64,000 nucleotides of DNA, from positions 3,181,501-3,245,500 of the forward strand of contig NZ_JAUSVK010000001.1 of assembly GCF_030814655.1 (NCBI RefSeq), written 5' to 3'. The DNA comes from Labrys monachus (GTDB taxonomy: Bacteria; Pseudomonadota; Alphaproteobacteria; Rhizobiales; Labraceae). Positions 17,683 to 63,709 of the stretch are shown here, piece after piece (position 1 is the stretch's first letter; each line of letters opens with the position of its first letter). The translations under genes were made by a program, and so were the position numbers. The notes under the pieces are model-generated. The model made no database searches. It was not told the origin of the DNA and saw only the letters and a list, made by a program, of their open reading frames with translations.

Positions 17683-17738
17683 CCCCCCTCTCGGTTCTCT
17701 TCGTCCCACCGTGGCCGAGGGAGCGAACGCGCGACTTT

Positions 17739-17753
17739 GTTCTATATTCGTTC
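17739..17753. promoter_or_regulatory. LexA-binding site (SOS box, alphaproteobacterial type)
   Basis: GTTCTATATTCGTTC is a perfect GTTC-N7-GTTC, the LexA operator form of alphaproteobacteria. It lies 80 bp upstream of the UvrD-like helicase start at 17833 and downstream of the preceding membrane-protein gene, so it should repress the helicase until DNA damage. Confidence 0.75.
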
Positions 17754-17832
17754 AGTTTTAGCCGCTAGGGTCGACCATCACGAACCGAATCGGCCGGCCT
17801 GCGCCGCCCTGCTCGCTCCACGAGGCCGGACC

Positions 17833-19905
17833 ATGAACATGCACGCTGCCGCCGCCCCGGCCGAGCCCGTCGACTACCTCGCCACCCTGAACGAGGGGCA
17901 GCGCCGGGCGGTCGAGCATGGCGTCGGCGCCGGCTGCGGCCCCCTGCTGGTGATCGCGGGGGCCGGATCGGGCAAGACCAATACGCTCGCCCATCGCGTC
18001 GTGCATCTCATCGCCTCCGGCGCCGATCCGCGGCGCATCCTGCTCCTCACCTTTTCGCGCCGGGCCGCGTCGGAGATGATCCGGCGCGTCGAGCGGCTCG
18101 CCGCCCGCGTCATGGGGCCGAACGGCGCCGTGCTCGGCGAGGGGCTTTCATGGGCCGGCACGTTCCACGCCGTCGGCGCCCGGCTGCTGCGCGAGCACGC
18201 ATTCCAGATCGGGCTTGATCCCACCTTCACCATCCATGACCGCGAGGACGCCGCCGACCTCATGAACCTCGTGCGTCACGAGCTCGGCCTGTCGAAGAAG
18301 GAGACGCGCTTTCCGACCAAGAATACCTGCCTCGACATCTATTCGCGGGTGGTGAACGCGCAGGACGAGCTGGAGGCGGTGCTGAAATCGGCCTTTCCCT
18401 GGTGTCTCGGCGCGGCCGAGGACCTGCGTTCGCTGTTCTCGGCCTATGTCGAGGCCAAGCTCGGCAACAATGTGCTCGACTATGACGACCTCCTGCTGTG
18501 GTGGTCCCATATGGTGGCCGAGCCAATGATCGCCGCCGACATCGGCGCGCGCTTCGACCATGTCCTCGTCGACGAATACCAGGACACCAACCGCCTGCAG
18601 GCCTCGATCCTGCTCGCGCTGAAACCCGATGGCCGCGGATTGACCGTCGTCGGGGACGATGCCCAGTCGATCTATTCGTTCCGGGCCGCCACCATCCGCA
18701 ACATCCTGGATTTCCCGGGCCATTTTTCGCCGCCGGCGGAGATCGTCACCCTCGACCGCAACTACCGCTCCACCCAGCCGATCCTGAACGCGGCGAACGC
18801 CGTGATCGGCCTGGCGAGCGAGCGCTTCACCAAGAACCTGTGGACCGACCGGCAATCGTCGGAGCTGCCGCAACTGGTGACCGTGAAGGACGAGGCGGGC
18901 CAGGCCGATTTCGTGGCGACGCGCATCCTCGAAAATCGCGAGGCCGGCATGACGCTGAAGGCGCAGGCCGTGCTGTTCCGGACCTCGCATCACAGCGGCC
19001 CGCTCGAGGTCGAGCTCGTCCGGCGCAACATCCCCTTCGTCAAGTTCGGCGGGTTGAAATTCCTCGATGCCGCCCATGTCAAGGACATGCTGGCCATCCT
19101 GCGCTGGGCCCAGAACCCGCGCGACCGCGTGGCCGGCTTCCGCGTCCTGCAATTGCTGCCGGGCGTCGGCCCGACGAGCGCCGCGCGCGTGCTCGATGCG
19201 GCCGGGACAGGCGATATCGCGGAGTTGCCGGCGCCGCCGCGGGCGGGCGCGGACTGGCCGGCCTTCGCCGAGCTCACCGGCCATTTGCGCTCGGCCCTGA
19301 GCCCCTGGCCTGCCGAGATCGGCCATGTCCGCCAATGGTACGAGCCGCATCTGGAGCGCATGCACGAGGATGCCGTCACCCGCCGGGCGGACCTGCTGCA
19401 GCTCGAGCAGATCGCCGCGGGCTACGCCTCGCGCGAGCGCTTCCTCACCGAACTGACGCTCGACCCGCCCAGCGCCACCAGCGACGAGGCCGGCGCACCG
19501 ACGCGCGACGAGGATTACCTCATCCTCTCGACCATCCATTCCTCGAAGGGCCAGGAGTGGAAATCGGTCTTCGTCCTCAATGCGGTCGACGGTTGCATGC
19601 CGGCCGACGTCGCCGCCGGTTCGCCGGCGGAGCTGGAGGAGGAACGCCGCCTCCTCTATGTCGCGATGACCCGCGCCAAGGACAGCCTGCACCTCATGAT
19701 GCCGCAGCGCTTCTTCACCCATGGCCAGCACGCCCAGGGCGACCGCCACGTCTATGCCAACCGCACCCGCTTCATTCCCGCGAGAATTCTCGGCTTCTTC
19801 GAGCAGACGATGTGGCCGATGGCGACGGCGTCCGCGCCCGGCCCGGCATGGAGAGGCACCGCGGCCATCGACCTCAAGGACAGGATGCGCGGCATGTGGC
19901 GGTGA
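17833..19905 (+). CDS. UvrD/PcrA-like superfamily 1A DNA helicase, probably SOS-regulated
   Basis: The 690-aa protein is a 3'-5' DNA helicase of the UvrD/Rep family, acting in repair and replication restart. Motifs seen are Walker A AGAGSGKT (residues 42-49), DEYQDTN (motif II), VVGDDAQSIYSFRAA (III), LDRNYRST (IV), STIHSSKGQEWKSVFV (V) and YVAMTRAKDSL (VI). The length is near UvrD (about 720), but the order and spacing suggest a second paralogue rather than canonical UvrD. The ATG at 17833 gives MNMHAAAAP, with the Q-motif TLNEGQRRAV at about residues 18-27. A perfect LexA box is 80 bp upstream. Confidence 0.9.
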   Translation: MNMHAAAAPAEPVDYLATLNEGQRRAVEHGVGAGCGPLLVIAGAGSGKTNTLAHRVVHLIASGADPRRILLLTFSRRAASEMIRRVERLAARVMGPNGAVLGEGLSWAGTFHAVGARLLREHAFQIGLDPTFTIHDREDAADLMNLVRHELGLSKKETRFPTKNTCLDIYSRVVNAQDELEAVLKSAFPWCLGAAEDLRSLFSAYVEAKLGNNVLDYDDLLLWWSHMVAEPMIAADIGARFDHVLVDEYQDTNRLQASILLALKPDGRGLTVVGDDAQSIYSFRAATIRNILDFPGHFSPPAEIVTLDRNYRSTQPILNAANAVIGLASERFTKNLWTDRQSSELPQLVTVKDEAGQADFVATRILENREAGMTLKAQAVLFRTSHHSGPLEVELVRRNIPFVKFGGLKFLDAAHVKDMLAILRWAQNPRDRVAGFRVLQLLPGVGPTSAARVLDAAGTGDIAELPAPPRAGADWPAFAELTGHLRSALSPWPAEIGHVRQWYEPHLERMHEDAVTRRADLLQLEQIAAGYASRERFLTELTLDPPSATSDEAGAPTRDEDYLILSTIHSSKGQEWKSVFVLNAVDGCMPADVAAGSPAELEEERRLLYVAMTRAKDSLHLMMPQRFFTHGQHAQGDRHVYANRTRFIPARILGFFEQTMWPMATASAPGPAWRGTAAIDLKDRMRGMWR

Positions 19906-52251: not shown

Positions 52252-53184
52252 ATGAGCGTGGATCCCTTCTCCGATATTCTCCGACTTGCGCGGGCCGAAA
52301 CGCTGGTCACCGGCGGATTCACGGCGGGCGGTCCCTGGGCGATTCGCTTTCCCGTCCCAAAGACGATCAAGTTCTTTGCGGTGGTGAAGGGTGATTGCTG
52401 GGTGACCCTCGACGGGGAGCCGCCCATCCGATTTGAAACCGGGGATGTGGGTCTGCTGTCGGCGCCACGGGCCTTCGTGCTGGGGAGCGAGCCGGGGGTC
52501 CCTCCCGTCGACGGAATGGCGCTGTTCTCCAGCGCCGGCAAGGCGACTGTCCAGCTCGGCGACGGCAGCGACTTCACTCATATAGGCGGCCACGTCCTGC
52601 TCGATCCCACAAGCGGACGGCTGCTGGCCGACGTTCTGCCGCCTTGGATCCATGTGCGGGCGGCTTCACCGCAGGCCGTGACCTTCCGGTGGCTGCTTGA
52701 CCGCCTTGCAGAGGAGCGGACGTCCGATCTCCCCGGCACCGAGCTCGCGTCCGCCCAACTCGCGCAGTTGCTCTTCATCCAGATCTTGCGCGCTCACCTC
52801 GCCGGGGCCGACGTCATGGGCGCCAGCTGGCTTCGAGCGTTGGGCGACCCGCGCATCGCCCCGGCCATTCGCCTGATGCATGACGATCCCGCGCGCGCAT
52901 GGCACCTTGAAGATCTCGCGGCGGCTTGTGCCATGTCGCGGACGACGTTCGCCGGGCGCTTCCGCACCGTCGCCGGCGTCGCGCCCCTCGCTTATCTAAC
53001 TCAATGGCGCATGCGACTGGCCGAGCAGGCCCTGCGGGACGAGACGGGAAGACCGGTGGCATCGATCGCGCGCTCGGTGGGCTATACGTCCGAAAGCGCT
53101 TTCAGCCATGCGTTCAAGCGGTGGAACCGCAGGTCACCCAAGTCTTACCGAGACGGCCATATGCCGCCACCCGCTTTGACATAG
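52252..53184 (+). CDS. AraC-family regulator with cupin sensor
   Basis: The 310-aa protein has an N-terminal cupin_6-type domain (about 1-180; KFFAVVKGDCWVTLDGEPPI) and a C-terminal AraC HTH pair (LEDLAAACAMSRTTFAGRF and SVGYTSESAFSHAFKRWN). It belongs to the same subgroup as the regulators at 20.8 and 55.5 kb. Being divergent from the aldo-keto reductase gene with 100 bp between, it is the obvious regulator of that operon. Confidence 0.9.
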   Translation: MSVDPFSDILRLARAETLVTGGFTAGGPWAIRFPVPKTIKFFAVVKGDCWVTLDGEPPIRFETGDVGLLSAPRAFVLGSEPGVPPVDGMALFSSAGKATVQLGDGSDFTHIGGHVLLDPTSGRLLADVLPPWIHVRAASPQAVTFRWLLDRLAEERTSDLPGTELASAQLAQLLFIQILRAHLAGADVMGASWLRALGDPRIAPAIRLMHDDPARAWHLEDLAAACAMSRTTFAGRFRTVAGVAPLAYLTQWRMRLAEQALRDETGRPVASIARSVGYTSESAFSHAFKRWNRRSPKSYRDGHMPPPALT

Positions 53185-53259
53185 CGAATGCGCGCCCCAA
53201 ATAGAGTTCGCCCTGCAGTGAGCGAGTGTCGACGCGACTCTTTGGCGACGTTCTGCCCG

Positions 53260-53823
53260 TCATCCCGGCAGGAGCCCCATATCGCGATAGCTGCCGATCA
53301 GGCTGTCGAAGAGACCGACATCCGCCCGGCTCCGCGCCAGGAGTTGGGCGCCGGACACGGCGGCAAAAATGGCGAGAGCGCGGGCTTTGCTCGCCGATAC
53401 GTCCCCCCCGTCCGCGGCGATCAGCACCTTGCCCAGCCACGCGACGTTGATGTCGGCGAAAGTCCGCACTTCCACCTTCACCGGTTCCGGCAGGTCGTCA
53501 TATTCGGCGGACATGAAGCTGCATAGACAGATCCGATTGCCGTTTTCAAGCGCTCGGCGGAATATCGCGGGATAGCGATGCAGGCAGGCGAGCGGATCCG
53601 GCGTCTCGGCCAGCATCTTCTCCAACTCGGCCGCGGTGTCTTCCCAATAGCGCCTGGCCACGGCCGCGCCGAGGTCGGCCTTGCTCGGGAAGTAATAATG
53701 GATGCTGGCGGCTTTGATTCCGACCCCAGCCGCCAGATCGCGGAAATTCAGGCCGCCATACCCATGCGCCTGCGCGGCATTGCGGGCCGCCGACAGGATC
53801 GCTTCCTTCGCATTCGAACTCAT
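53260..53823 (-). CDS. TetR-family regulator
   Basis: The 187-aa repressor has an HTH at about residues 7-52 (GGLNFRDLAAGVGIKAASIHYY, FPSKADLGAAV) and a C-terminal domain with two adjacent Cys residues (RICLCSFMSAEY), which may sense electrophiles as in some AcuR/NemR-like members. It is divergent from the GST gene with 112 bp between, where two near-identical 18-bp sites lie. Confidence 0.88.
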   Translation of the reverse strand: MSSNAKEAILSAARNAAQAHGYGGLNFRDLAAGVGIKAASIHYYFPSKADLGAAVARRYWEDTAAELEKMLAETPDPLACLHRYPAIFRRALENGNRICLCSFMSAEYDDLPEPVKVEVRTFADINVAWLGKVLIAADGGDVSASKARALAIFAAVSGAQLLARSRADVGLFDSLIGSYRDMGLLPG

Positions 53824-53844
53824 CTGCCAAATCCCCGCTCGCCC

Positions 53845-53862
53845 CTACCAAGTGACAGATAG
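53845..53862. promoter_or_regulatory. TetR operator candidate 1 (CTACC-N8-GATAG)
   Basis: CTACCAAGTGACAGATAG has partly symmetric ends (CTAyC/GrTAG). A second copy with two differences begins 54 bp to the right, in the same orientation. Confidence 0.7.
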
Positions 53863-53898
53863 AGGTTGTGCCGGCCGAATGGAAGGCCTATACAACGC

Positions 53899-53916
53899 CT
53901 ATCAAGTGGCAGGTAG
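53899..53916. promoter_or_regulatory. TetR operator candidate 2 (CTATC-N8-GGTAG)
   Basis: CTATCAAGTGGCAGGTAG repeats the first site, and both copies are followed by AGG. It ends 19 bp before the GST start codon, so occupancy should block GST expression. Confidence 0.7.
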
Positions 53917-53935
53917 AGGATCTGGAAAAGTGCTG

Positions 53936-54592
53936 ATGACGATCTATGACTGGCATACCGGGCCTTATCCGGCTCGCGTCCGTATCGCTCTCGGAGAGCT
54001 GAGGCTGCAATCGCAGGTCCGTTTCGTTTCGATCGACTTGTGGAAGGGCGAACACAAGACGCCTGCGTTTCTCGCCAAGAACTACTCCGGCACGCTGCCG
54101 GTGCTGGAGCTCGACGATGGGACGCTGATCGCCGAATGCACCGCGATCACCCAATATCTCGACGCGCTGAACGGCGACCACCTCCTTACCGGCATGACGC
54201 CTCTCGAACAGGGCGTGATCCACATGATGAGCAAGCGCGCCGAGATCGAGCTGCTCGATGCCATCAGCGTCTATTTCCATCATGCCACGCCGGGTCTGGG
54301 CCCCGATGTCGAGATCTACCAGAACGCCGAATGGGGGCTTCGCCAGCGCGACAAGGCGGTGCGCGGCATGCGCTACTTCGACAGCGTGCTCCGGCAGCGG
54401 CCCTTCATTGCCGGCCACGCCTTCTCGATGGCCGATATCGCCGTCATCGGCGGCCTTATCTTCGCGGAACTCGTCGGCCTCCCCGTGCCGGCCGAATGCG
54501 AGGCGCTGCGTGCCTGGTACGCCCGGATGCAGCAGCGTCCCAGCGTCCGGAACCGGATCACGATGTCCCCCCCCTCCAAGGCGGCGACCTGA
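53936..54592 (+). CDS. Glutathione S-transferase family protein
   Basis: The 218-aa protein has an N-terminal thioredoxin-like domain (YDWHTGPYPARVRIALGEL; GTLPVLELDDG and ECTAITQYLD for glutathione binding) and a helical C-terminal domain (GHAFSMADIAVIGGLIFAE, the usual N-capping/hydrophobic staple region). It should conjugate glutathione to electrophiles. The start is an ATG at 53936. It is divergent from a TetR gene and controlled, by inference, by the two CTAyC sites. Confidence 0.87.
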   Translation: MTIYDWHTGPYPARVRIALGELRLQSQVRFVSIDLWKGEHKTPAFLAKNYSGTLPVLELDDGTLIAECTAITQYLDALNGDHLLTGMTPLEQGVIHMMSKRAEIELLDAISVYFHHATPGLGPDVEIYQNAEWGLRQRDKAVRGMRYFDSVLRQRPFIAGHAFSMADIAVIGGLIFAELVGLPVPAECEALRAWYARMQQRPSVRNRITMSPPSKAAT

Positions 54593-54699
54593 CATCCCGA
54601 CGCCGCCCGGTCGAACAAGAGCAGCGGCGGGGCTTCGGCGGTTTCCTGTTCCGCCTGCTGGCGTGCGGCAATCGGCGGGTGTCACCCGAGATCGGACGT

Positions 54700-55440
54700 T
54701 CAATCTTGGGCTGTCGGCCGTATGACGATGCTGCCGACGTCGACATCGGCAGGCTGCTCGATCGCGTAGGCGACGCCACGGGCGATCGAAGACGGCGGGA
54801 TTCCGATATCGGCAACGCGTTCTCCGATCGCCTCCTTCACGGCGCGATCGGTTATCGAGCTTGCAAAGTTGGTCGAGGTCATCCCCGGCGAAACCTCGGT
54901 GACCCGCAGATGTGGTCCCGCTTCCTGTCTCAACGCTTCGCTGATGGTCCGCACGGCGTTCTTGGTCGCCGCATAGACACCCATGGTCGGGAGGATCTTG
55001 ATCCCCGCGGTCGAGACGATGTTGATGACGTGGCCCGACTGCTGACGCTTGAAGACGGGCAATGCGGCAGCGATGCCGTAAAGCGTGCCCCGCAGATTGA
55101 CGTCGATCATGGCGTCCCAGTCCTCGACGCGCAACGCATCGAAACGGGATATCGGCCCGATCCCCGCATTGTTCACGATGACGTCCAGCCGGCCACCTCG
55201 CTCGATCGCCACTGCGACGAGAGCTTCAAGATGGCTCCGGTGGCGGACATCGGTCACCCTATAGGCGGCCTTGCCGCCTGCGGCGGTAATGTCGTCCACG
55301 GTCGCCGCGAGCGCTTCCTCGCCCCGGGCCCCGAGCACGACAAAAGCCCCGCGCTCTGCAAGCAGCTTCGCCGTCGCCTGGCCGATCCCGCTGCTTGCGC
55401 CGGTGATGGCGACAACCTTGCCCTCAATGCCCAATGCCAT
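54700..55440 (-). CDS. Short-chain dehydrogenase/reductase
   Basis: The 246-aa classical SDR begins with KVVAITGASSGIGQATAKLL, has VIVNNAGIGPIS, catalytic Ser in NIVSTAG, and YAATKNAVRTIS with the Tyr-Lys pair. PGMTSTNFASS and a C-terminus resembling the YdfG/NADP-dependent SDR subgroup follow. It is divergent from an AraC regulator with 93 bp between. The substrate is unknown. Confidence 0.9.
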   Translation of the reverse strand: MALGIEGKVVAITGASSGIGQATAKLLAERGAFVVLGARGEEALAATVDDITAAGGKAAYRVTDVRHRSHLEALVAVAIERGGRLDVIVNNAGIGPISRFDALRVEDWDAMIDVNLRGTLYGIAAALPVFKRQQSGHVINIVSTAGIKILPTMGVYAATKNAVRTISEALRQEAGPHLRVTEVSPGMTSTNFASSITDRAVKEAIGERVADIGIPPSSIARGVAYAIEQPADVDVGSIVIRPTAQD

Positions 55441-55463
55441 TCTCCTTCATCGAACTGAGCCAA

Positions 55464-55498
55464 GAGCATATCAACCCGGTCCAAGATGAACTATGCTC
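55464..55498. promoter_or_regulatory. Inverted repeat in the SDR/AraC intergenic space
   Basis: GAGCATA (55464-55470) and TATGCTC (55492-55498) are inverted with a 21-bp spacer, between two divergent genes. The spacing places the half-sites on the same face of the helix, suitable for an AraC-type dimer. Confidence 0.5.
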
Positions 55499-55533
55499 AG
55501 ACGCCCATGGATTTGTCGTGAACGTCCAAAGTG

Positions 55534-56433
55534 ATGACTGATCCGCTGTCGGATGTTCTCAACGTTCTCGGCGCAAGGGTGACCCGCCGCACCCGGCTGG
55601 AAGCCGCGGGACGATGGGCCCTCGCATTTCCCGCTCTCGAGCGCCTCAAATTCGTGGCGCTCGTGCGGGGAGCCGGCTGGATGATGCTGCCGGGGCGGCC
55701 GCCGCAACTGTTGAGCGCAGGCGATGTCTGCCTGCTCGGATGCACGGCCTATACGATAGCCAGCGACCCGGCGCTGCCGCCCCTCGATGGCCAGCCTTTC
55801 TACGGCGCTGGCTGCGATACGGCACGTCTCGGAGGCGACGAGACGGTTTCGATCGGGGGAACCGTCACCTTCGCCCCGGGGCATGCGGATTTCCTGCTCG
55901 GCATGCTGCCGGATTTCCTGTTCGTTCCGCGATCCTCGGCTGCGTCCGGCGCGATTTCGACGATCCTCGGGTTGATGGATGACGAGGCCAAGCGGGACAT
56001 CATCGGCAGCGGGATCGTAAGTGCCCGGCTCGCCGATGTGTTGCTGGTGGAGGCGATCCGCGCCTATGCGGGGAGTGTCGGGCAGGTCGAGATCGGATGG
56101 CTTGGCGCTCTCTCGGATCCTCGGCTGGGCCGGGTGCTTCGCGTCATTCACGGGGATATCGCGCAGCCTTGGACGGTGGCCCGGCTCGCCGGCGTGGCCG
56201 GCATGTCGCGTGCTGCCTTCTCCGCGGCGTTCACGCGCCGGGTGGGACAGCCGCCGCTCGCCTATGTGCGCGCGTGGCGTCTCACCATCGCTCGGGTGGC
56301 GGTGGCGCGTGGAGACGACACGGTCGCCAGCATCGCCGGCCAGGTCGGCTACACGTCGCAGAGCGCATTCGGCCACGCTTTCAAGCGCGCTTTCGGCCGG
56401 CCTCCGAAGGCTCATGCCTTTCGCTCGTCTTGA
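55534..56433 (+). CDS. AraC-family regulator with cupin sensor
   Basis: The protein of about 299 aa has a cupin_6-type N-terminal domain (DPLSDVLNVLGARVTRRTRL, LSAGDVCLLG) and an HTH pair (VARLAGVAGMSRAAFSAAF and QVGYTSQSAFGHAFKRAFG). It is the third regulator of this type in the window and the second within 4 kb. The start is a GTG at 55531 or the following ATG at 55534. It most likely controls the divergent SDR gene. Confidence 0.88.
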   Translation: MTDPLSDVLNVLGARVTRRTRLEAAGRWALAFPALERLKFVALVRGAGWMMLPGRPPQLLSAGDVCLLGCTAYTIASDPALPPLDGQPFYGAGCDTARLGGDETVSIGGTVTFAPGHADFLLGMLPDFLFVPRSSAASGAISTILGLMDDEAKRDIIGSGIVSARLADVLLVEAIRAYAGSVGQVEIGWLGALSDPRLGRVLRVIHGDIAQPWTVARLAGVAGMSRAAFSAAFTRRVGQPPLAYVRAWRLTIARVAVARGDDTVASIAGQVGYTSQSAFGHAFKRAFGRPPKAHAFRSS

Positions 56434-56537
56434 AGTGCGGAGGCGAACGTGAACAAACGCCGTGATCCCCGAGACGCCACCAATCTCGGTGTGACAGCGC
56501 GGGTCTACGAGACGGGTAAATTCTCGGCTGGCATGGC

Positions 56538-57536
56538 CTAAGTCGAAAGTTTTCCAGAGTCGATCGTCAGCGTCACAATGATTCCGTCACTGGACCAGTC
56601 CGTTTTGATGACACCGCCAAGCTGGCCGGTCACGATGCGGTTAAGCAGCTTGCTGCCATAGCCTTCGCCGGCCGGAGGCTCGACCGACGGGCCGCCGCGC
56701 TCTGTCCACACGATGCACAAGTGACCGTCGCTGTTCGTCCCCGAAACATCGAGCATACCCGCACCAATCGAGAGGGCGCCATATTTCAGCGAATTCGTTG
56801 CAAGCTCATGCATGACGAGCGCAAGGGTCGTGGCGGCACGTTCGCCCACCCCCATCCGGGGAACCGCAACGCGGACGCGCCCGCTGAAAGCAGCGGAATC
56901 GTCGTAGGGAGCCAGGACCAACGAGATGATATCACCCAGCAAGGCGGCCCGGCCCTGATGGCCCGGCAGCGGGCGGACAGCGTCATGCGCTCTGCCGAGC
57001 GCGGCCAGGCGTTCCGTCAGCTCCTTCGCCATTTCATGGACGGTCGTGGTCGAGCGCGAGGTTATCGTCGTAAGACCGGTCGCGATGGCCAGGAGATTCT
57101 TGACCCTGTGACTCATCTCACCGGCAAGAAGCTCGTGCCCCTCTTCTGCCTGCTTGCGTCCTGTCACGTCGAGGAAAACACCCGACATCTGCCCCTTGTG
57201 CAGCCCTTCGTCATTGCCGAGGCCGCGAGATGAAATCCATCGAATTTCTTCATCCAGGAGGATGCGAAAGTCGATCTCATACGCGCCCACCATGGCCCGC
57301 GTGGCGGCGAACGCGGCGCGCACCCTGTCCCGGTCCGCGGGATGAATGCGAGAAGAAAGGTCCTCGAACGTCACATTTTTTGTTTGCGGCAGGCCCCAAA
57401 GAGCAAAACCTCGCTCGTCCATTGCAAAAGCGTCGGTTTCAACCGTCCACGACCACAGCGCCACGCCCGCGGCATTCAGGGCACGCTTGAGATTTTGCGC
57501 TTCCCGCAGGGGATGGTTTTCGTCGCTGAATGGCAT
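56538..57536 (-). CDS. PAS-containing HWE-family sensor histidine kinase
   Basis: The 332-aa cytosolic kinase has a PAS domain (about 12-130, ending DVTGRKQAEEG) and an HWE kinase core: phospho-acceptor H143 in EMSHRVKNLLAIA, N-box MHELATNSLKYGAL, and the diagnostic WTE in IVWTERGGP. There is no membrane segment, so it senses a cytosolic signal such as light, oxygen or a ligand. HWE kinases are abundant in Hyphomicrobiales and often work in the general stress response through PhyR-like proteins. No response regulator is adjacent. Confidence 0.9.
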   Translation of the reverse strand: MPFSDENHPLREAQNLKRALNAAGVALWSWTVETDAFAMDERGFALWGLPQTKNVTFEDLSSRIHPADRDRVRAAFAATRAMVGAYEIDFRILLDEEIRWISSRGLGNDEGLHKGQMSGVFLDVTGRKQAEEGHELLAGEMSHRVKNLLAIATGLTTITSRSTTTVHEMAKELTERLAALGRAHDAVRPLPGHQGRAALLGDIISLVLAPYDDSAAFSGRVRVAVPRMGVGERAATTLALVMHELATNSLKYGALSIGAGMLDVSGTNSDGHLCIVWTERGGPSVEPPAGEGYGSKLLNRIVTGQLGGVIKTDWSSDGIIVTLTIDSGKLST

Positions 57537-57676
57537 GGCCTTCTCCCGTCTTCAACGAAGTGAGCAGATCGTGCCCCCCGTTGCGCTAGCGGCGAGACCT
57601 TGGTGAGGTAATTGTCAGGACCGTCAATGCCTAGGCTGAAATAGCTACGCCTTATCAAGAGTCTCGATGAACTGAC

Positions 57677-57766
57677 TGGCGGAAGGGGTGAGATTCGAAC
57701 TCACGGTGGGCTTGCACCCACGGCGGTTTTCAAGACCGCTGCCTTAAACCACTCGGCCACCCTTCC
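57677..57766 (-). tRNA. tRNA-Ser (anticodon TGA)
   Basis: The 90-nt class II tRNA starts GGAAGGG (57766-57760), has a G discriminator and an encoded CCA (57679-57677), the loop CTTGAAA with anticodon TGA, and a long variable arm built on GTGGGTGCAAGCCCAC. The T-arm GTTCGAATC is standard. Confidence 0.95.
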
Positions 57767-57911
57767 GGCACCGGACGGGCGAGACAGGGTCGGCACCGTG
57801 GCGCAAGAAGGCCTGTCTAGCAGGGAAGACGGAAGAGTCAAAGGGTCAAACGCGGCGTCCGGCGGCCGCGTTCGATCGTCTCGGGACGGTACCCGGTCTG
57901 GCCGAGGCGCT

Positions 57912-60900
57912 TCAGAACAGGCTGAACTGCTGGGGCCTGCGCCTTGCCGGCGGCGCGGCGCGGACCACGGTCAATTCGGCGCCGATGTCGCGCAGAAAGG
58001 GCGAAGCCGGCAGCGCTCGCCTCGCGCCGCGCCAGAACCGGTCGGCGGCGCGGGTGAGGAACAGCCTGTCCCGCGCCCGCGTCATGGCGACATAGAACAG
58101 CCGCCGCTCTTCGGCACCGGCCTCCCCGCTTTCCTCCGCCGGCCCCCAGGAGAACGGCATGAGGCCCTCCTCCATGCCGACGACGAAGACCACCGGGAAT
58201 TCCAGTCCCTTGGCGGCATGCATGGTGGCGAGCAGCACCCGGTCGGCACGCGGATCGTAGAAATCGGCCTCGGTCGAAAGCGCGACCTGCTCCCTCAGGC
58301 GTGCCTCGTCGCCCGCGACGGCCGCCGAAGCCGCGAGCGACGCGAGCCATGCCCTGGCCTCGGCAACCGCAGGGCCGGCTTCCTCCCGCGAGCGCGCCGC
58401 CTGCGCGGTGGCGGCGATGCGTGCCGGCAGATCCGGCCCCTCGGCCTCCCCGCCCTGCTCGGCGAGCAGATGGAGGATCGCCTCCACCCCCGCATGGTCG
58501 GCCAGGCGCGCCGGCGAGCTCTTCCGGTAGGGAATGCCGGCGCGGTCGAAGGCGTCCCGCAGCGCCGCCGCCTGCATGTCCGTGCGGTAGAGGACGGCGA
58601 AATCGGCAAAGCCGAGAGAGGCTTGGTCGAGAGAGGCATGCTCGAGAGAGGCTTGGCCGCCCCGGCCGCGATGCTTCCCCTTGCCGGCCTCCAGCAGGTC
58701 GTGGCCGCCGAGGATCTCCTCGATCGTCCTCGCCACGAAGTCGGCCTCCGCCTGCTCCGAGACGGCGGCATGGAGCACGATCGGCTCATCCATGGGGCGC
58801 GTGATGCCGTCCGGCGCCATGCCGACGAGTTGCGAAGCCGCGGTGACGATGGTGCCGCTCGAGCGGTAGTTGCGCGCCAGGCGCACCGTCGGCGCGGCGG
58901 GGAAGTCGCGGGCGAAGCGTTCGAAGCAGGTCGCGTCCGCCCCGCGGAAGCCGTAGATCGCCTGGTTGGGATCGCCGATGACGCAGAGCCTGCCCGCCGG
59001 ACCGGCGATGAGGCGCAGCAGGCGATATTGCTGCTCGTCGACGTCCTGGAACTCGTCGGCGAGGATATGGGCGAAGCGCGCGCGCCACAGCGCCGCGATC
59101 CCGGCATGCTCTTCCAGGAGTTTCACCGGCAGCGCGACCAGATCGTCGAAATCGAGCCAGCCCTGCTCCCGGCCGAGCCGGTCGAGCGTGGCGAGGGCCT
59201 GCATTTCCTCCGGCTCCCCTCCCGCGCCCGTGCGCTTGAGCACCGATACGGCGCGGACGAGGCGGGCGGCACGGGTGTCGCCGAGGCCCAGCGCCGTCGC
59301 CAGGGCCGCCTTGCGCTCGGCCTCGTCGGCGATGCGGAAGCCGGGATCGAGGCCGAGGGCCGCACCATGGGCACGCAGGATCGAAAGCCCGAGGGAATGG
59401 AAGCTGTGCACCGCCACCGCCGCGGCCTCGCCGGGCAGCAGCAGGGCGAGCCGGGCCCGCAATTCCTCCGTCGCCCGGCGCGTGAAGGTGATGGCGAGGC
59501 AGGAGGCGGCAGCCACGCCGCATTCGGCGACCAGATGCGCGATGCGGTGGGTGAGCATGCGCGTCTTGCCCGAACCGGGACCGGCGACGACGGCCAGCGC
59601 CGTGTCGACCATCGCGGCCGCGCGGGCCTGGTCGTCGTCGAGCGCGGCGAGGAGCCCGGACCGTCCGGAGGGCCGCGGCGGCGCAAGGGGCTCCGCCGGC
59701 AGGGCTGCCTCCACCCGGGCCGGTTCGCCGGACGGCGCCTTCGGCGCGCGCACCCGGCGGTGCACCGGCGCCTCGAACAGGCGCTCGCCGCGCGTGAAGC
59801 GGCTGAGCTCGCCCTCCTCGAACAGGCGGATCACGCCATATTCGCCGTCATAGCCGGCCTGCCGGATCACCGTGCCGGCGCGCAGCCGCGAGACGGCTTC
59901 CCCGAGCAGCGGATCGGCGCGTTCGATCTCCTCCACCGGCACCGTGCCGAGGATGCCAAGCTCCGGGCCGAGCGCGGCGCTGGTCCGCGCATAGGCCTGG
60001 TCGACCGCCTTGGAGGCGACGCCGCTGCCGAGAATCTCCGAGAGGATCTCCGGCAGGGGCACGAGGCTCGACACCTCGCCCGCAGTCGCCGGCGGCGCGG
60101 CATCCGCCTCGCTGCGGTCGGCGAGCATCTCGACGCGGTGGGCCACCCCCACGGTGACGCGGGAGCCGCAGACCGGGCAGCGGCCGTCGAGCGCCAGGGT
60201 CTGCCGGGGATCGAGCCGCACGCCGCAGGCGCGGTGGCCATCCATGTGGTACTTGCCCTCCTCGGGAAAGAACTCGACGGTGCCGTCATAGCCCTCCCCC
60301 GTCTCCAGGGCCCTGCGGATGGCGAAATAGTCCGGCTCGCAGGAGAAGCGCGTCGCTTCGCGGCCGAGCTTGCCGGGCGAATGGGCATCGGAATTGGACG
60401 TCAGCCGGTAGCGGTCGAGCGAGGACACCCGCCAGTTCATCGCCGGATCGGAGGAAAGTCCGGTCTCCACCGCGAAGATGTGCTCGGCGAGGTCGCCATA
60501 GCAGTCTCCGATCGAATCGAAGCCCGACTGCGAGCCGAGGGCGGCGAACCACGGCGTCCAGATATGGGCCGGCACGAGATAGGAATGCGGCCCCGATTCC
60601 AGCGCGACCTCGAGCAGGTCGCGCGAATCGAGTCCGAGGATCGGCCGTCCGTCGGAGGCGATGTTGCCGATCCGCCCCAGGCTCGCCGCCAGCCGGTCGG
60701 CGGAGGCGAAATCGGGCGCGTAGATCAAATGATGGATCTTCCGGGTCTTCTCGCCCTTCTTGTAGATGGTCGAGATTTCCGTGGAGAGCATGAAACGGAC
60801 GGGCATGCGGCAGGAGGGCGGCAATGTCCGGAAGACATCCGCCTCGATATCGGGCCTGAGGCGGAACAGGCCGCCGCCATCCGCAACGAGCTTATCCTTG

Positions 60901-61055
60901 ATTTCCGCCAGCCAGGCCGGATGCACGCAGTCGCCGGTGCCGACGACACCGATGCCCTTGCGCGCCGCCCACCAGGCGAGATGCTCGAGATCGAGGTCCC
61001 GGCTGGTGGCGCGGGAGTATTTCGAATGGACGTGCAGGTCGGCGTGAAAGGCCAT
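57912..61055 (-). CDS. Fusion of endonuclease-Q-like PHP nuclease and UvrD/PcrA-like helicase
   Basis: The 1047-aa protein has two full modules. Residues 1-430 match the EndoQ family, which nicks 5' of deoxyuracil, hypoxanthine, xanthine and abasic sites: DLHVHSKYSRATSRD (metal ligands H8, H10), GTGDCVHP (D42, H45), VETGLSSDPAMNWR, TSNSDAHSPGKLGRE (D223, H225), and a zinc-finger-like CPVCGSRVTVGVAHRVE (C293, C296, with C277). Residues 465-1047 are a UvrD helicase: AGPGSGKT 491-498, DEFQD 667-671, VIGDPNQAIYGFRGA, HAAKGLEF, YVAMTRARDRL. The ATG at 61055 gives MAFHADLHVH; one at 61142 adds 29 residues. A 15-bp DNA repeat lies in the helicase at 58614-58658. Confidence 0.9.
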   Translation of the reverse strand: MAFHADLHVHSKYSRATSRDLDLEHLAWWAARKGIGVVGTGDCVHPAWLAEIKDKLVADGGGLFRLRPDIEADVFRTLPPSCRMPVRFMLSTEISTIYKKGEKTRKIHHLIYAPDFASADRLAASLGRIGNIASDGRPILGLDSRDLLEVALESGPHSYLVPAHIWTPWFAALGSQSGFDSIGDCYGDLAEHIFAVETGLSSDPAMNWRVSSLDRYRLTSNSDAHSPGKLGREATRFSCEPDYFAIRRALETGEGYDGTVEFFPEEGKYHMDGHRACGVRLDPRQTLALDGRCPVCGSRVTVGVAHRVEMLADRSEADAAPPATAGEVSSLVPLPEILSEILGSGVASKAVDQAYARTSAALGPELGILGTVPVEEIERADPLLGEAVSRLRAGTVIRQAGYDGEYGVIRLFEEGELSRFTRGERLFEAPVHRRVRAPKAPSGEPARVEAALPAEPLAPPRPSGRSGLLAALDDDQARAAAMVDTALAVVAGPGSGKTRMLTHRIAHLVAECGVAAASCLAITFTRRATEELRARLALLLPGEAAAVAVHSFHSLGLSILRAHGAALGLDPGFRIADEAERKAALATALGLGDTRAARLVRAVSVLKRTGAGGEPEEMQALATLDRLGREQGWLDFDDLVALPVKLLEEHAGIAALWRARFAHILADEFQDVDEQQYRLLRLIAGPAGRLCVIGDPNQAIYGFRGADATCFERFARDFPAAPTVRLARNYRSSGTIVTAASQLVGMAPDGITRPMDEPIVLHAAVSEQAEADFVARTIEEILGGHDLLEAGKGKHRGRGGQASLEHASLDQASLGFADFAVLYRTDMQAAALRDAFDRAGIPYRKSSPARLADHAGVEAILHLLAEQGGEAEGPDLPARIAATAQAARSREEAGPAVAEARAWLASLAASAAVAGDEARLREQVALSTEADFYDPRADRVLLATMHAAKGLEFPVVFVVGMEEGLMPFSWGPAEESGEAGAEERRLFYVAMTRARDRLFLTRAADRFWRGARRALPASPFLRDIGAELTVVRAAPPARRRPQQFSLF
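58614..58658. repeat. Three tandem 15-bp repeats inside the helicase module
   Basis: Units GAGAGAGGCTTGGTC, GAGAGAGGCATGCTC and GAGAGAGGCTTGGCC lie head to tail. On the coding strand they give the pentapeptides QASLE, HASLD and QASLG, between helicase motifs III and V. The period keeps the frame, so copy number could change without breaking the gene. Confidence 0.85.
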
Positions 61056-61321
61056 GGCAGCTTCGGCGCAGGTGAGGAAGCGCCGATCGGGGCGGCGCGC
61101 CTCTGCATATAGGCCTCGTCCCCGGAGGATGCATCCCCGCACGCCATCGCGAACGGCCTCCGGCGCGGCCTTGCCACGTCACCGCGGGCCGCGCGGCATC
61201 GACGATCTGCCGCTGACGGAATCGGCGCGGCCGTGTCATATCTCCTCCCGGGTTCAATTCGCGTGCCGCCGGGTTCGTCGAGGGCTTCGATTGCCGCCGG
61301 CCTCATGGAGGGAGTTGTCGC
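61056..61321. promoter_or_regulatory. Divergent promoter region between the nuclease-helicase and the oxygenase genes
   Basis: The 266-bp gap must contain both promoters. GTTC-AATTCGC-GTGC (61252-61266) differs by one base from the LexA form GTTC-N7-GTTC, and a GGATGCATCC palindrome sits at about 61125. The ribosome site GGAGGGAG precedes the GTG at 61322. No strong -35/-10 pair stands out. Confidence 0.4.
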
Positions 61322-63709
61322 GTGTCATCAATTGCCGCCGACTTGGCGAAGTTGCTGGCCGGGGTCCAGCGCCCCGGCGATTTCTGCACCACCGGCGTCG
61401 CCACCATCTTCGCGCCCGGTCTGGAAATCGAAGGGGTGGGGCCGATCTCGCTGCCGTTTCCCAGGATCCAACTCGAGGCTCTGATCGCCGCGGCCGAGCA
61501 GGCTCCTTACGGCCGAGGCAACCAGACCCTGGTCGACACCGATATACGCCGGAGCTGGCAGATCGATGCCGGCAAGGTCCACATTCACGGCAAGGCATGG
61601 GCGAGGAGCCTGCAGGAGATCGTCGACCGGGTCGCTGCGGGCCTCGGCGTGAGCGACCCGATCAAGCCGGAACTCTACAAGCTCCTGGCCTATGATGAAG
61701 GCGGCTTTTTCGTAAGCCACCGCGACACCGAGAAAGCGCCCGGCATGTTCGCGACGCTCATCATCGTGCTCCCCTCGGCCTATACGGGCGGCGAACTTGT
61801 CGTTCGCCATCGCGACCGCGAAATCCGCTTCGACCCGCACGGCCAGGACCCGTCCGAAGTGGCCTTCGCCGCCTTCTATGCCGATTGCCTGCATGAATTG
61901 CTGCCGGTGACCTCGGGCTGCCGGCTCGCCCTCGTCTATAACCTGCTGCGCCAGGGTACCGGCGATGCGCCCAGGCCGCCGAGCCACGAGGCCGAACGGG
62001 ACAGCCTGGCCGATCTGCTGCGCCGATGGAGCGAGGACGAAAGCCCGGTCCGCCGGCGCGACGACGAGCCGTCGGACGAAGACGCCTATGGTGACGAGGA
62101 CGACGAGGGCGAGGATGATGAGGGCGAGGGCGATGAGGAAGACGGTCCGCCAGCAAAGCTGATCTACCCGCTCGAACACGTCTATACCACGGCCAGCCTG
62201 TCCTTCGATGCCCTGAAGGGAGCCGATGCTGCGAGAGCGGCGACGCTTCTGGCGGCGGCCCGCGCCGCTCACTGCGATCTGCATCTCGCCGTGCTGTCCA
62301 TCGAGGAGAGCGGCAGCGCCGAATATACCGGCTACGGCATCCGCAGCCGAGGACGACATTACGACGACGAAACGGAAGAGGACGAATTCGACGTCATCGA
62401 GGTCATGGAGAGCCACGAGACCCTGTCGGAGTGGCGTCGGCCTGACGGCAGCGCTCCGGCGCTCGGCGTCCTTCCCGTCAATCCCGAGGAAGTATCGCCG
62501 CCCGACGCCCTCGACGACCTCGTGCCGGACAAGCAGAGCTTCTTCGAGGCCACCGGCAACGAAGGCGCTTCGTTCGAACGCAGCTACCGCAAGGCCGCGC
62601 TGGTGGTCTGGCCGAACAGCCGGCGGCTCGCGATCGTCAACCAGGGAAGCCTGGGGGACACCCTGCACTATCTCGCCGATCTCACCGAGCAGTGGGCAGC
62701 CGGCGGCGGCGATCCTCAATCGCCTTCATGGGCGCTCGCACATGAATTGTCCGGGCACATGCTGGCGACCTGGCCGAAGCGGAGTTGGAGCACGGCCAAG
62801 GGGCCGAGCGACGCCACCACGATGCTGAACCTGCTCGGCAGGCTCGACGACGTCGCGCATATCGATCGCTTTCTCGCCGAGGTCTCCGTCGGCGCGCTCT
62901 CGCGGGGCGACAACGAAGCCGTGCTGCAGGCCGTTCGCCGGCTGCCGCGCAGCCGCAGGATCGAGTTGCTGACGCGCATCGTCACGGAAAGCGCGCCGTC
63001 CGCACTCGATATCGCGGCCAACCTGCTGGTACAGGCCGCCCGGGCGGCGGAAGATGGAAGCCTTGACCTGCCACCTGCGGATCTTCTGCCGGCAGCGGCC
63101 GGTCTGCTCGCGGCCTTGCCCGGCGATCCCGCGGAGGAGCCGCCAATACCGTCCTGGCAATGGCCCGCTCCGATCGAACCGGACGTCGTCGTGGATGCGG
63201 TGACGGCGCTTGCGCAAATCGATTCGAAGCTCGCGGGCGCTGCGGTCGATACTCTTCTCGCCTGGCCCAAGACATACGATCTCGACGAGGTGCTGGTTCC
63301 TGTCGTCCTGAAGCTGGACCGGTCGGCAAGCTCGGCGGCGATGATGCGTCTGCGCACGGCCTGTGCCCTTCATCTCGGCGCCCGGATCGCCGAACCTTTG
63401 GCGCCGCCCGCCGACTGGAGGCGTCCCAGCGCGGTAAAATGCTCCTGCGAACGTTGCAGCCTGTTCCGCCGCTTCCTCGCCGATCCCAGGCTCCAGACGT
63501 GGAGCTACAAGGCCGTGCAGGCCGATCGCAGCCATGTGGAGAGCACGATCCGCGAGGGACGTTACGACGTCGACGTCACCACGCTCCGGCAGGGCTCGCC
63601 CCATACGCTGGTCTGCACCAAGAACCAGGCGAGCTATGAGCGCAGGGTCCTGCAGCGCAAGAAGGACCTGGTCGACCTCGCGCAAATCGAGAGTCTCTAT
63701 CCTTCATAG
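61322..63709 (+). CDS. Large protein with N-terminal 2OG-Fe(II) dioxygenase domain
   Basis: The 795-aa protein begins at a GTG after GGAGGGAG. Residues about 80-215 form a prolyl-hydroxylase-like double-stranded beta-helix: YKLLAYDEGGFFVSHRDTEK (H133, D135), LIIVLPSAYTGGELVVRH, CLHELLPVTSGCRLALVYN (H191 and R201 for 2OG). A strongly acidic linker follows (about 220-270, DEDDEGEDDEGEGDEED), then 520 residues of mixed helical sequence with no domain I know, ending with CSCERCSLFRRFL (a possible metal site) and a KNQASYERR tail. Substrate unknown. It is divergent from the EndoQ-UvrD fusion. Confidence 0.8.
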   Translation: MSSIAADLAKLLAGVQRPGDFCTTGVATIFAPGLEIEGVGPISLPFPRIQLEALIAAAEQAPYGRGNQTLVDTDIRRSWQIDAGKVHIHGKAWARSLQEIVDRVAAGLGVSDPIKPELYKLLAYDEGGFFVSHRDTEKAPGMFATLIIVLPSAYTGGELVVRHRDREIRFDPHGQDPSEVAFAAFYADCLHELLPVTSGCRLALVYNLLRQGTGDAPRPPSHEAERDSLADLLRRWSEDESPVRRRDDEPSDEDAYGDEDDEGEDDEGEGDEEDGPPAKLIYPLEHVYTTASLSFDALKGADAARAATLLAAARAAHCDLHLAVLSIEESGSAEYTGYGIRSRGRHYDDETEEDEFDVIEVMESHETLSEWRRPDGSAPALGVLPVNPEEVSPPDALDDLVPDKQSFFEATGNEGASFERSYRKAALVVWPNSRRLAIVNQGSLGDTLHYLADLTEQWAAGGGDPQSPSWALAHELSGHMLATWPKRSWSTAKGPSDATTMLNLLGRLDDVAHIDRFLAEVSVGALSRGDNEAVLQAVRRLPRSRRIELLTRIVTESAPSALDIAANLLVQAARAAEDGSLDLPPADLLPAAAGLLAALPGDPAEEPPIPSWQWPAPIEPDVVVDAVTALAQIDSKLAGAAVDTLLAWPKTYDLDEVLVPVVLKLDRSASSAAMMRLRTACALHLGARIAEPLAPPADWRRPSAVKCSCERCSLFRRFLADPRLQTWSYKAVQADRSHVESTIREGRYDVDVTTLRQGSPHTLVCTKNQASYERRVLQRKKDLVDLAQIESLYPS

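Follow-up and report, generated by a model that had tools for sequence, protein, structure and literature searches.

The window analyzed here is a stretch of 64,000 nucleotides from Labrys monachus (contig NZ_JAUSVK010000001.1, positions 3,181,501–3,245,500), which carries on its reverse strand a gene that encodes an endonuclease Q (EndoQ) domain and a UvrD-type helicase in one polypeptide (57912–61055, −). The frame is free of internal stops across 57912–61142 (−), and translation from the ATG at 61055 (−) yields an uninterrupted protein of 1047 amino acids plus stop; M1 and F3 are invariant across 20 aligned EndoQ domains. An assembly or frameshift chimera was rejected for this gene, since the frame is open and intact long frames recur in other genomes. 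The original prediction that both modules belong to one polypeptide, with neither stop nor frameshift between them, was thus confirmed, and the existence of the fused gene is about certain. To characterize the gene, 80 fusions were aligned, which fall into 65 clusters at 80% identity and underlie all residue counts out of 80, and AlphaFold2 models were built. The full-length model has a predicted local distance difference test score (pLDDT) of 88.0 and a predicted TM score (pTM) of 0.59, so that confidence extends to the individual folds but not to their position relative to each other. Between the two halves lies a low-confidence linker with pLDDT below 50, which is probably flexible (residues 424–456; 59688–59786, −). 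An antisense frame of 1104 residues (57798–61112, +) spans the whole fusion gene; the window holds many long overlapping frames on both strands.

The EndoQ domain, consisting of PHP catalytic, Zn-binding and C-terminal parts, was assigned to residues 1–415 (59811–61055, −) by phmmer matches to 5zb8 and 7k30 and by fold comparison. Pfam names no domain in this half. A phmmer search of residues 1–420 against the chains of the Protein Data Bank (PDB) returned three distinct sequences at E ≤ 0.001, all of them EndoQ, with the match to PfuEndoQ (5zb8; E 3.4e-47) covering residues 3–414. The AlphaFold2 model of residues 1–415 (pLDDT 86.0, pTM 0.88) matched the PfuEndoQ fold at E 1.3e-35 (TM 0.81/0.84), and the next-best PHP fold followed at E 5.8e-5 (TM 0.32/0.56). 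Another PHP family was therefore rejected for the N-terminal half, given that only EndoQ chains reach E ≤ 0.001 in the PDB and the next PHP fold is far weaker. D6, H10, E93, H108, H164, E197, G199, S201, D223, and H225 are kept in 80/80 fusions and H8 in 78/80. In PfuEndoQ numbering, the equivalents of D6, H10, E76, H84, H139, E167, G169, and S171 are invariant, as are the S, D, and H of the SDAH motif, for which the numbering in the examined part of PMC4357722 is off by one from our count on the 5zb8 alignment. The catalytic residues E76, H84, and H139 and the pocket residues G169 and S171 of PfuEndoQ, whose roles are described in the portions of PMC4357722 and PMC8307549 considered here, correspond to E93, H108, H164, G199, and S201. 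The metal ligands are thus present in alignment with true EndoQ, and are kept in 78–80 of the 80 fusions. Based on sequence and model, residues 3–414 are an endonuclease Q, and the predicted identity of the N-terminal half was borne out by the PDB search, the fold match, and the active-site residues. By analogy with the characterized enzymes, it is highly probable that the fusion nicks DNA in the manner of EndoQ.

The original prediction had also suspected a damaged zinc finger with partial zinc binding, because one Cys seemed to be replaced within the sequence CGVR. The putative zinc-binding site is H274-x2-C277 ... C293-x2-C296 (60168–60236, −), which corresponds in the alignment to the CxxC...CxxC of PfuEndoQ. 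Because H274-x2-C277 takes the place of the first of these pairs, position 280, the variable residue of CGVR, is no zinc ligand and is free to vary (R in 48 sequences, C in 26, others in 6). The aligned ligand H274 is His in 79/80 fusions and Cys in the remaining one, and C277, C293, and C296 are present in 80/80. The suspicion thus rested on the wrong position, and since the aligned ligand is a conserved His, the predicted four-ligand site of three Cys and one His appears intact.

The C-terminal half was identified as a superfamily 1A (SF1A) helicase of the UvrD/PcrA/Rep type (residues 466–1035 with an approximate end; 57951–59660, −). Pfam finds PF00580 (2.9e-60) and PF13361 (6e-30), and the best fold matches include 1pjr, 3lfu, 2is1, and 4c2t. 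The NCBIfam equivalog cut-offs are missed both for pcrA (317.8 of 911.2 bits) and for uvrD (275.8 of 1144.45 bits). Twelve residues, which we take to represent the named SF1A motifs, were examined, and all are invariant: K497, T498, D667, E668, Q670, and Q698 as well as R704, R731, H946, K949, E952, and R993 are kept in 80/80 fusions. In agreement with the complete motif set that had been predicted, sequence and model identify residues 466–1035 as a complete UvrD/PcrA/Rep-like SF1A helicase, and its family membership makes 3'->5' helicase activity very likely. A conserved stretch with the consensus GGHSFFSxDSGRxxG was observed in the fusion helicases between motifs IV and V (residues 783–816; 58608–58709, −), in a segment that is about 16 residues longer than in ordinary UvrD/PcrA.

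Comparison by phmmer with the UvrD of D. radiodurans and a comparison of segment lengths within the family revealed a shortened region at about residues 851–936 (58248–58505, −), which we take to correspond to subdomain 2B. Between two aligned blocks, 46 residues of the fusion (851–896) face 132 residues of D. radiodurans UvrD (389–520). The segment between the LYR strand and motif V has a median length of 121 residues in the fusions (range 108–199), compared with 199 in ordinary UvrD/PcrA; for the part that follows motif V up to the C terminus, the values are 103 and 207. Parsing succeeded for 81 of the 86 fusions and for 14 of the 16 ordinary copies, which leaves five fusions and two ordinary helicases out of this comparison. 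By this sequence comparison, the fusions lack about 78 residues of the segment holding 2B as well as the C-terminal tail, presumably the Tudor-like region, and have neither a full 2B subdomain nor the ordinary tail. Rep monomers are activated by deletion of 2B. It is a speculative idea that the shortened 2B may let the fused helicase act as a monomer governed by EndoQ.

The protein ends in QFSLF, a beta-clamp-binding-like motif (residues 1043–1047; 57915–57929, −), of which Q1043 is found in 80/80 and L1046 in 79/80 aligned fusions. Qxx[LM] stands at the C-terminal end of 84 of 86 fusions. The clamp consensus Q-phi-x-[LM]-[FL] or Q-phi-x-[LM]-x-[FL], as given in the examined portion of PMC11139829, occurs within the last 20 residues of 61 of the 86. 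The background for this published form, which does not apply to Qxx[LM], was 7 of 4343 equal-sized windows from the protein bodies, and 0 of 16 tails of ordinary UvrD/PcrA, the latter chosen by length and match (4 from fusion-bearing genomes, including the window's own). A separate count gave 76 of 82 tails versus 116 of 5543 body windows for a loose Qxx[LM]-like pattern, and 58 of 82 versus 0 of 5543 for a narrow one; since the relatives are not independent, these tail counts do not represent probabilities. The pLDDT of the tail is below 50 in the full-length model, as expected for a short linear motif. The conservation of the motif makes clamp binding likely. The motif and the shortened 2B region are new beyond the original prediction. 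According to the parts of PMC4858679 available, a C-terminal PIP box of archaeal EndoQ binds PCNA, which stimulates nicking, and bacterial EndoQ homologs have a clamp motif in the C-terminal region; a P. abyssi EndoQ homolog was reported earlier as a PCNA partner (PMC3820547, examined in part).

Compared with the known enzymes PfuEndoQ (5zb8/7k30), TkoEndoQ, and Bacillus pumilus EndoQ, the fusion thus shares the whole EndoQ domain with its catalytic and pocket residues, the four-ligand zinc site, and a clamp-type motif at or near the C terminus. It differs by about 570 helicase residues between the EndoQ domain and the end motif, and by a His in place of one zinc-binding Cys; moreover, its motif is of the beta-clamp type, whereas that of the archaeal enzymes is a PIP motif. 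With UvrD/PcrA/Rep helicases it has the motif residues and the fold in common. Unlike UvrD/PcrA, it has a segment holding 2B that is about 78 residues shorter, a C-terminal part about 100 residues shorter, the extra conserved stretch between motifs IV and V, a C-terminal clamp-type motif, and an N-terminal nuclease. RecB, AddA, and AdnAB likewise combine an SF1A motor and a nuclease in one polypeptide. Their nuclease is of the RecB type, lies C-terminally, and acts from DNA ends, whereas that of the fusion is a predicted PHP-type lesion nickase at the N terminus. No published description or biochemical study of an EndoQ–helicase fusion was found in the literature searched, which did not cover preprints, in agreement with the original prediction, which knew of no biochemical study of such a fusion in alphaproteobacteria; nor does one appear in the examined portions of PMC4357722, PMC8307549, PMC6202378, PMC3820547, PMC4858679, PMC7776575, PMC7690668, and PMC11354406.

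EndoQ genes were located with TIGR00375 in genomes at different taxonomic levels. Within the order, 6 of 297 genomes were positive, including the window's own, and all six frames have 1050–1109 residues. The phylum-level search yielded 18 of 398 genomes, again counting the window's own, with ten frames of 1018–1095 residues, seven of 426–514, and one cut by a contig end. Two further searches were centered on genomes chosen for bearing a fusion, with the centers counted. Among Actinomycetota, 7 of 246 genomes were positive, with four fusions, two matches that are weak and short, and one frame truncated at a contig end. Among Acidobacteriota, 21 of 149 were positive, with fifteen stand-alone EndoQs, two fusions, three matches that are weak and short, and one cut frame. 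The fusion occurs in 2 of the 5 genomes of the window's genus, which suggests that it is easily gained or lost. A scan of genome contigs revealed at least 588 confirmed relatives; archaea and Bacillota were not among the matches listed. The best 80 of these comprise 67 complete fusions, a share that is biased upward because fusions supplied 15 of the 20 rows of the query; the others are six frames that run past the contig edge, four stand-alone EndoQs (L061, L081, L108, and L115), the split L096 and L107, and the frameshifted L077. The complete fusions bear ten phylum labels, many of them from metagenome-assembled genomes (MAGs): Pseudomonadota, Binatota, Poribacteria, Acidobacteriota, Actinomycetota, Elusimicrobiota, Melainabacteria (Gastranaerophilales), Planctomycetota, Verrucomicrobiota, and Myxococcota. 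The named strain Plastoroseomonas hellenica LMG 31523 also has such a protein. The statement that EndoQ occurs in only a few bacteria did not hold, given this spread of relatives. A mobile or phage gene was rejected, as the whole fusion protein had no match in plasmids at E 1e-50, the EndoQ domain had none in phages at E 1e-5, and none of 21 pattern matches in viral contigs was confirmed.

In a midpoint-rooted EndoQ tree of 111 rows, calculated with a quick method, 13 stand-alone EndoQs from the Acidobacteriota search stand beside one deep fusion on a long branch (L151), and the other 85 fusions form one cluster together with 12 short forms. The tree forces at least seven changes between fused and short labels, so that it accommodates a single origin followed by several losses without proving it. 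The helicase tree places 85 fusion helicases and two split forms on one side of a branch with a support of 97, and on its other side seven further helicases, of which one has a very long branch. Both trees look alike by eye, and the halves stay together across phyla. Outside these counts are L150 and L161 (EndoQ frame not recovered by the pattern) and L139, L140, and L156 (cut by stretch or contig); L094 is outside the helicase tree because its Walker A was missed by the pattern. Among the stand-alone EndoQs outside the fusion cluster, 11 of 13 end in Qxx[LM] directly after the EndoQ domain, eight of them in the published form. No such end is present in the nine helicase-less stand-alone forms nested inside the cluster, from which the split L096 and L107 and the contig-end-cut L141 were left out; the separate helicase frames of L096 and L107 end in QLSLF and QLTLF. 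In the fusions the helicase is positioned between the EndoQ domain and the C-terminal tag. Our reading of these sequences is that the helicase may have been inserted before the tag and that later losses took both together.

A run of nine (once ten) A was observed at the EndoQ/helicase junction, at about codon 412, in 11 of 17 loci from Gastranaerophilales or unnamed bacteria (L077, L079, L082, L083, L094, L095, L096, L104, L107, L109, and L114), and no second run as long occurs within the first 2900 bases of these genes. EndoQ and helicase are out of frame with each other in L107 and L096, where EndoQ stops a few codons past the run. Possibly, polymerase slippage at the run yields EndoQ alone besides the fusion; shared ancestry or MAG errors are the other explanations.

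The genomic background was inspected for other enzymes acting on deaminated bases. Uracil-DNA glycosylase (UDG) superfamily members (PF03167) are encoded in 16 of 18 EndoQ-positive Pseudomonadota, in 16/16 EndoQ-negative relatives, and in 8/8 EndoQ-bearing genomes reached through named loci; the window genome has five matches. Endonuclease V (EndoV, PF04493) was found in 0/18, 1/16, and 3/8 genomes of these groups, respectively, and thus neither in the window genome nor in 15 of the 16 EndoQ-negative relatives. The idea that EndoQ replaces a missing UDG or EndoV was therefore not supported, as UDGs are present and EndoV is also missing from nearly all EndoQ-negative relatives, which makes its absence uninformative. 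The fusion does not stand in for a missing glycosylase.

The divergent neighbor of the fusion gene is a 795-residue frame (61322–63709, +) in which PF13640 (2OG-Fe(II) oxygenase; E 3.5e-8) was recognized; across the 95 loci compared, none of the other fusions has it as a neighbor. For the HK, AraC, and SDR neighbors of the window fusion, scattered matches of 32–38% identity occur in these loci. A conserved operon was rejected, since the oxygenase does not recur and the matches of the remaining neighbors are only scattered. Among 14 alphaproteobacterial loci, an FGGY sugar kinase gene adjoins the gene in L042, L043, L067, and the more distantly related L039. A DUF72 gene (PF01904; L041:5647–6498) lies beside the fusion in genome G004, and a DUF72 frame 43% identical to it (L061:4962–5966) beside the stand-alone EndoQ of Devosia nitrariae. 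A link to repair was seen for neither the kinase nor the DUF72 neighbors. The window also holds a second UvrD-like helicase (17737–19905, +), which is far diverged from the fusion helicase and has the DRT-associated helicase RTasHel as its best PADLOC match; in G004, a further UvrD-like frame is located some 7 kb away from the fusion (L041:17054–19159).

Starting from the observed fused gene, its distribution, the conserved active-site residues, the motif, and the altered helicase, and drawing on family knowledge for nicking, polarity, flap displacement, clamp binding, and order of steps, we propose that the protein is a clamp-tethered, glycosylase-independent nick-and-unwind excision-repair enzyme with all functions coupled, to which we assign a probability of roughly 0.55. 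A deaminated base or abasic site would be flipped out by the EndoQ half, which would then cut the damaged strand on the 5' side of the lesion, so that a 3'-OH and a 5'-phosphate result. At this nick the helicase half would load onto the undamaged complementary strand and, with its expected 3'->5' movement, approach the lesion and displace the strand that bears it as a 5' flap; the flap displacement follows from the established polarity of the helicase family, and would be the geometry needed for repair synthesis from the 3'-OH. The C-terminal QxxLF-type motif would tether the protein on the beta sliding clamp and direct it to newly replicated DNA, the clamp-held protein would pass the 3'-OH to the polymerase, and a host flap nuclease and ligase would complete the repair. 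Of the original idea of a nick followed by unwinding, what stands is that it is the most economical reading of EndoQ and SF1A motifs in one polypeptide; the activity itself is inferred.

Several observations weigh against this proposal. Since UDGs coexist in 16 of the 18 EndoQ-positive genomes, a need for a further uracil pathway is not shown. The fusion is patchily distributed, with 6 of 297 positive genomes in the order, and no repair neighbor is conserved in the flanks compared; together these two points suggest an accessory function. The modelled arrangement of the EndoQ and helicase domains is of low confidence at pTM 0.59. The window copy of the end motif, QFSLF, has F and not an aliphatic residue at position 2, and is among the 25 of 86 tails lacking the published consensus; furthermore, plain C-terminal truncation explains the joint loss of motif and helicase equally well. 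In the profile searches proposed originally, the helicase half was matched (PF00580, PF13361), whereas TIGR00375 gave 141.1 bits over profile positions 72–374, below its curated cut-off of 326.6. No match among the 297, 398, 246, and 149 genomes exceeded this cut-off, and 2 of 14 control genomes did. Our claim is therefore limited to an EndoQ domain and does not extend to the hypothetical equivalog.

Members of the UvrD family also act as translocases, and the helicase might instead move along DNA or displace proteins and so deliver EndoQ to lesions, without strand excision. The shortened 2B and the missing ordinary tail, which suggest that the housekeeping roles of UvrD were not inherited wholesale, would suit such a damage scanner, but a nick is exactly the entry site that a 3'->5' helicase uses and all 12 motif residues tested are kept, so that we consider it unlikely. 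Even less probable is a mere joining of two domains, each acting alone: stand-alone (L061, L081, L108, L115) and split forms (L096, L107) exist among the fusion relatives, yet both halves are retained jointly with a common end motif in 67 of the best 80, a sample that the query biases towards fusions, and we regard this explanation as very improbable.

Between these two in probability lies a role in antiviral or anti-plasmid defense, directed at invading DNA in which uracil, hypoxanthine, or other altered bases are abundant. The examined part of a review suggests that Bacillus EndoQ may take part in antiviral defense (PMC8307549), the distribution is patchy within genus and order, and PADLOC models of GajB, the helicase of the Gabija system, match the helicase half (best 1e-71). 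However, these matches follow the UvrD fold and are similarly strong for another window helicase, and the clamp-type motif points to the host replication machinery. No GajA partner was found among the neighbors scanned (six by Pfam, three by PADLOC; not all intervening genes were covered), and no recognized defense gene was seen in the flank scanned (52252–63706), apart from the oxygenase, which weakly matches a CRISPR-associated 2OG model. We regard defense as improbable, and place a replication-coupled, strand-specific surveillance slightly lower still, in which the protein would remove fresh dUMP/dIMP or nick for mismatch repair with its helicase in the place of UvrD. The clamp-binding-like tag would put the protein behind the fork, where PCNA-bound archaeal EndoQ has been suggested to act (PMC7690668 and PMC7776575, in the parts examined). 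This is largely a special case of the clamp-tethered nick-and-unwind enzyme, though, and no link to MutS/MutL turned up, with no search for either being made.

In the portions of the literature examined, EndoQ is described as archaeal with some bacterial cases, and the step after its nick is open. The fusion of a predicted lesion nickase, a motor, and a clamp-type motif across ten phylum labels suggests the missing partner after the EndoQ nick. As Pfam sees the helicase half alone, domain-based annotation would hide a lesion nuclease in these genomes. We hold it possible, at slightly less than even odds, that the fusions represent a widespread unrecognized pathway, in which a single clamp-tethered polypeptide would replace glycosylase, apurinic/apyrimidinic endonuclease, and helicase, with EndoQ taking over the control exerted by 2B. 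Such a pathway would be directly testable in culturable bacteria.

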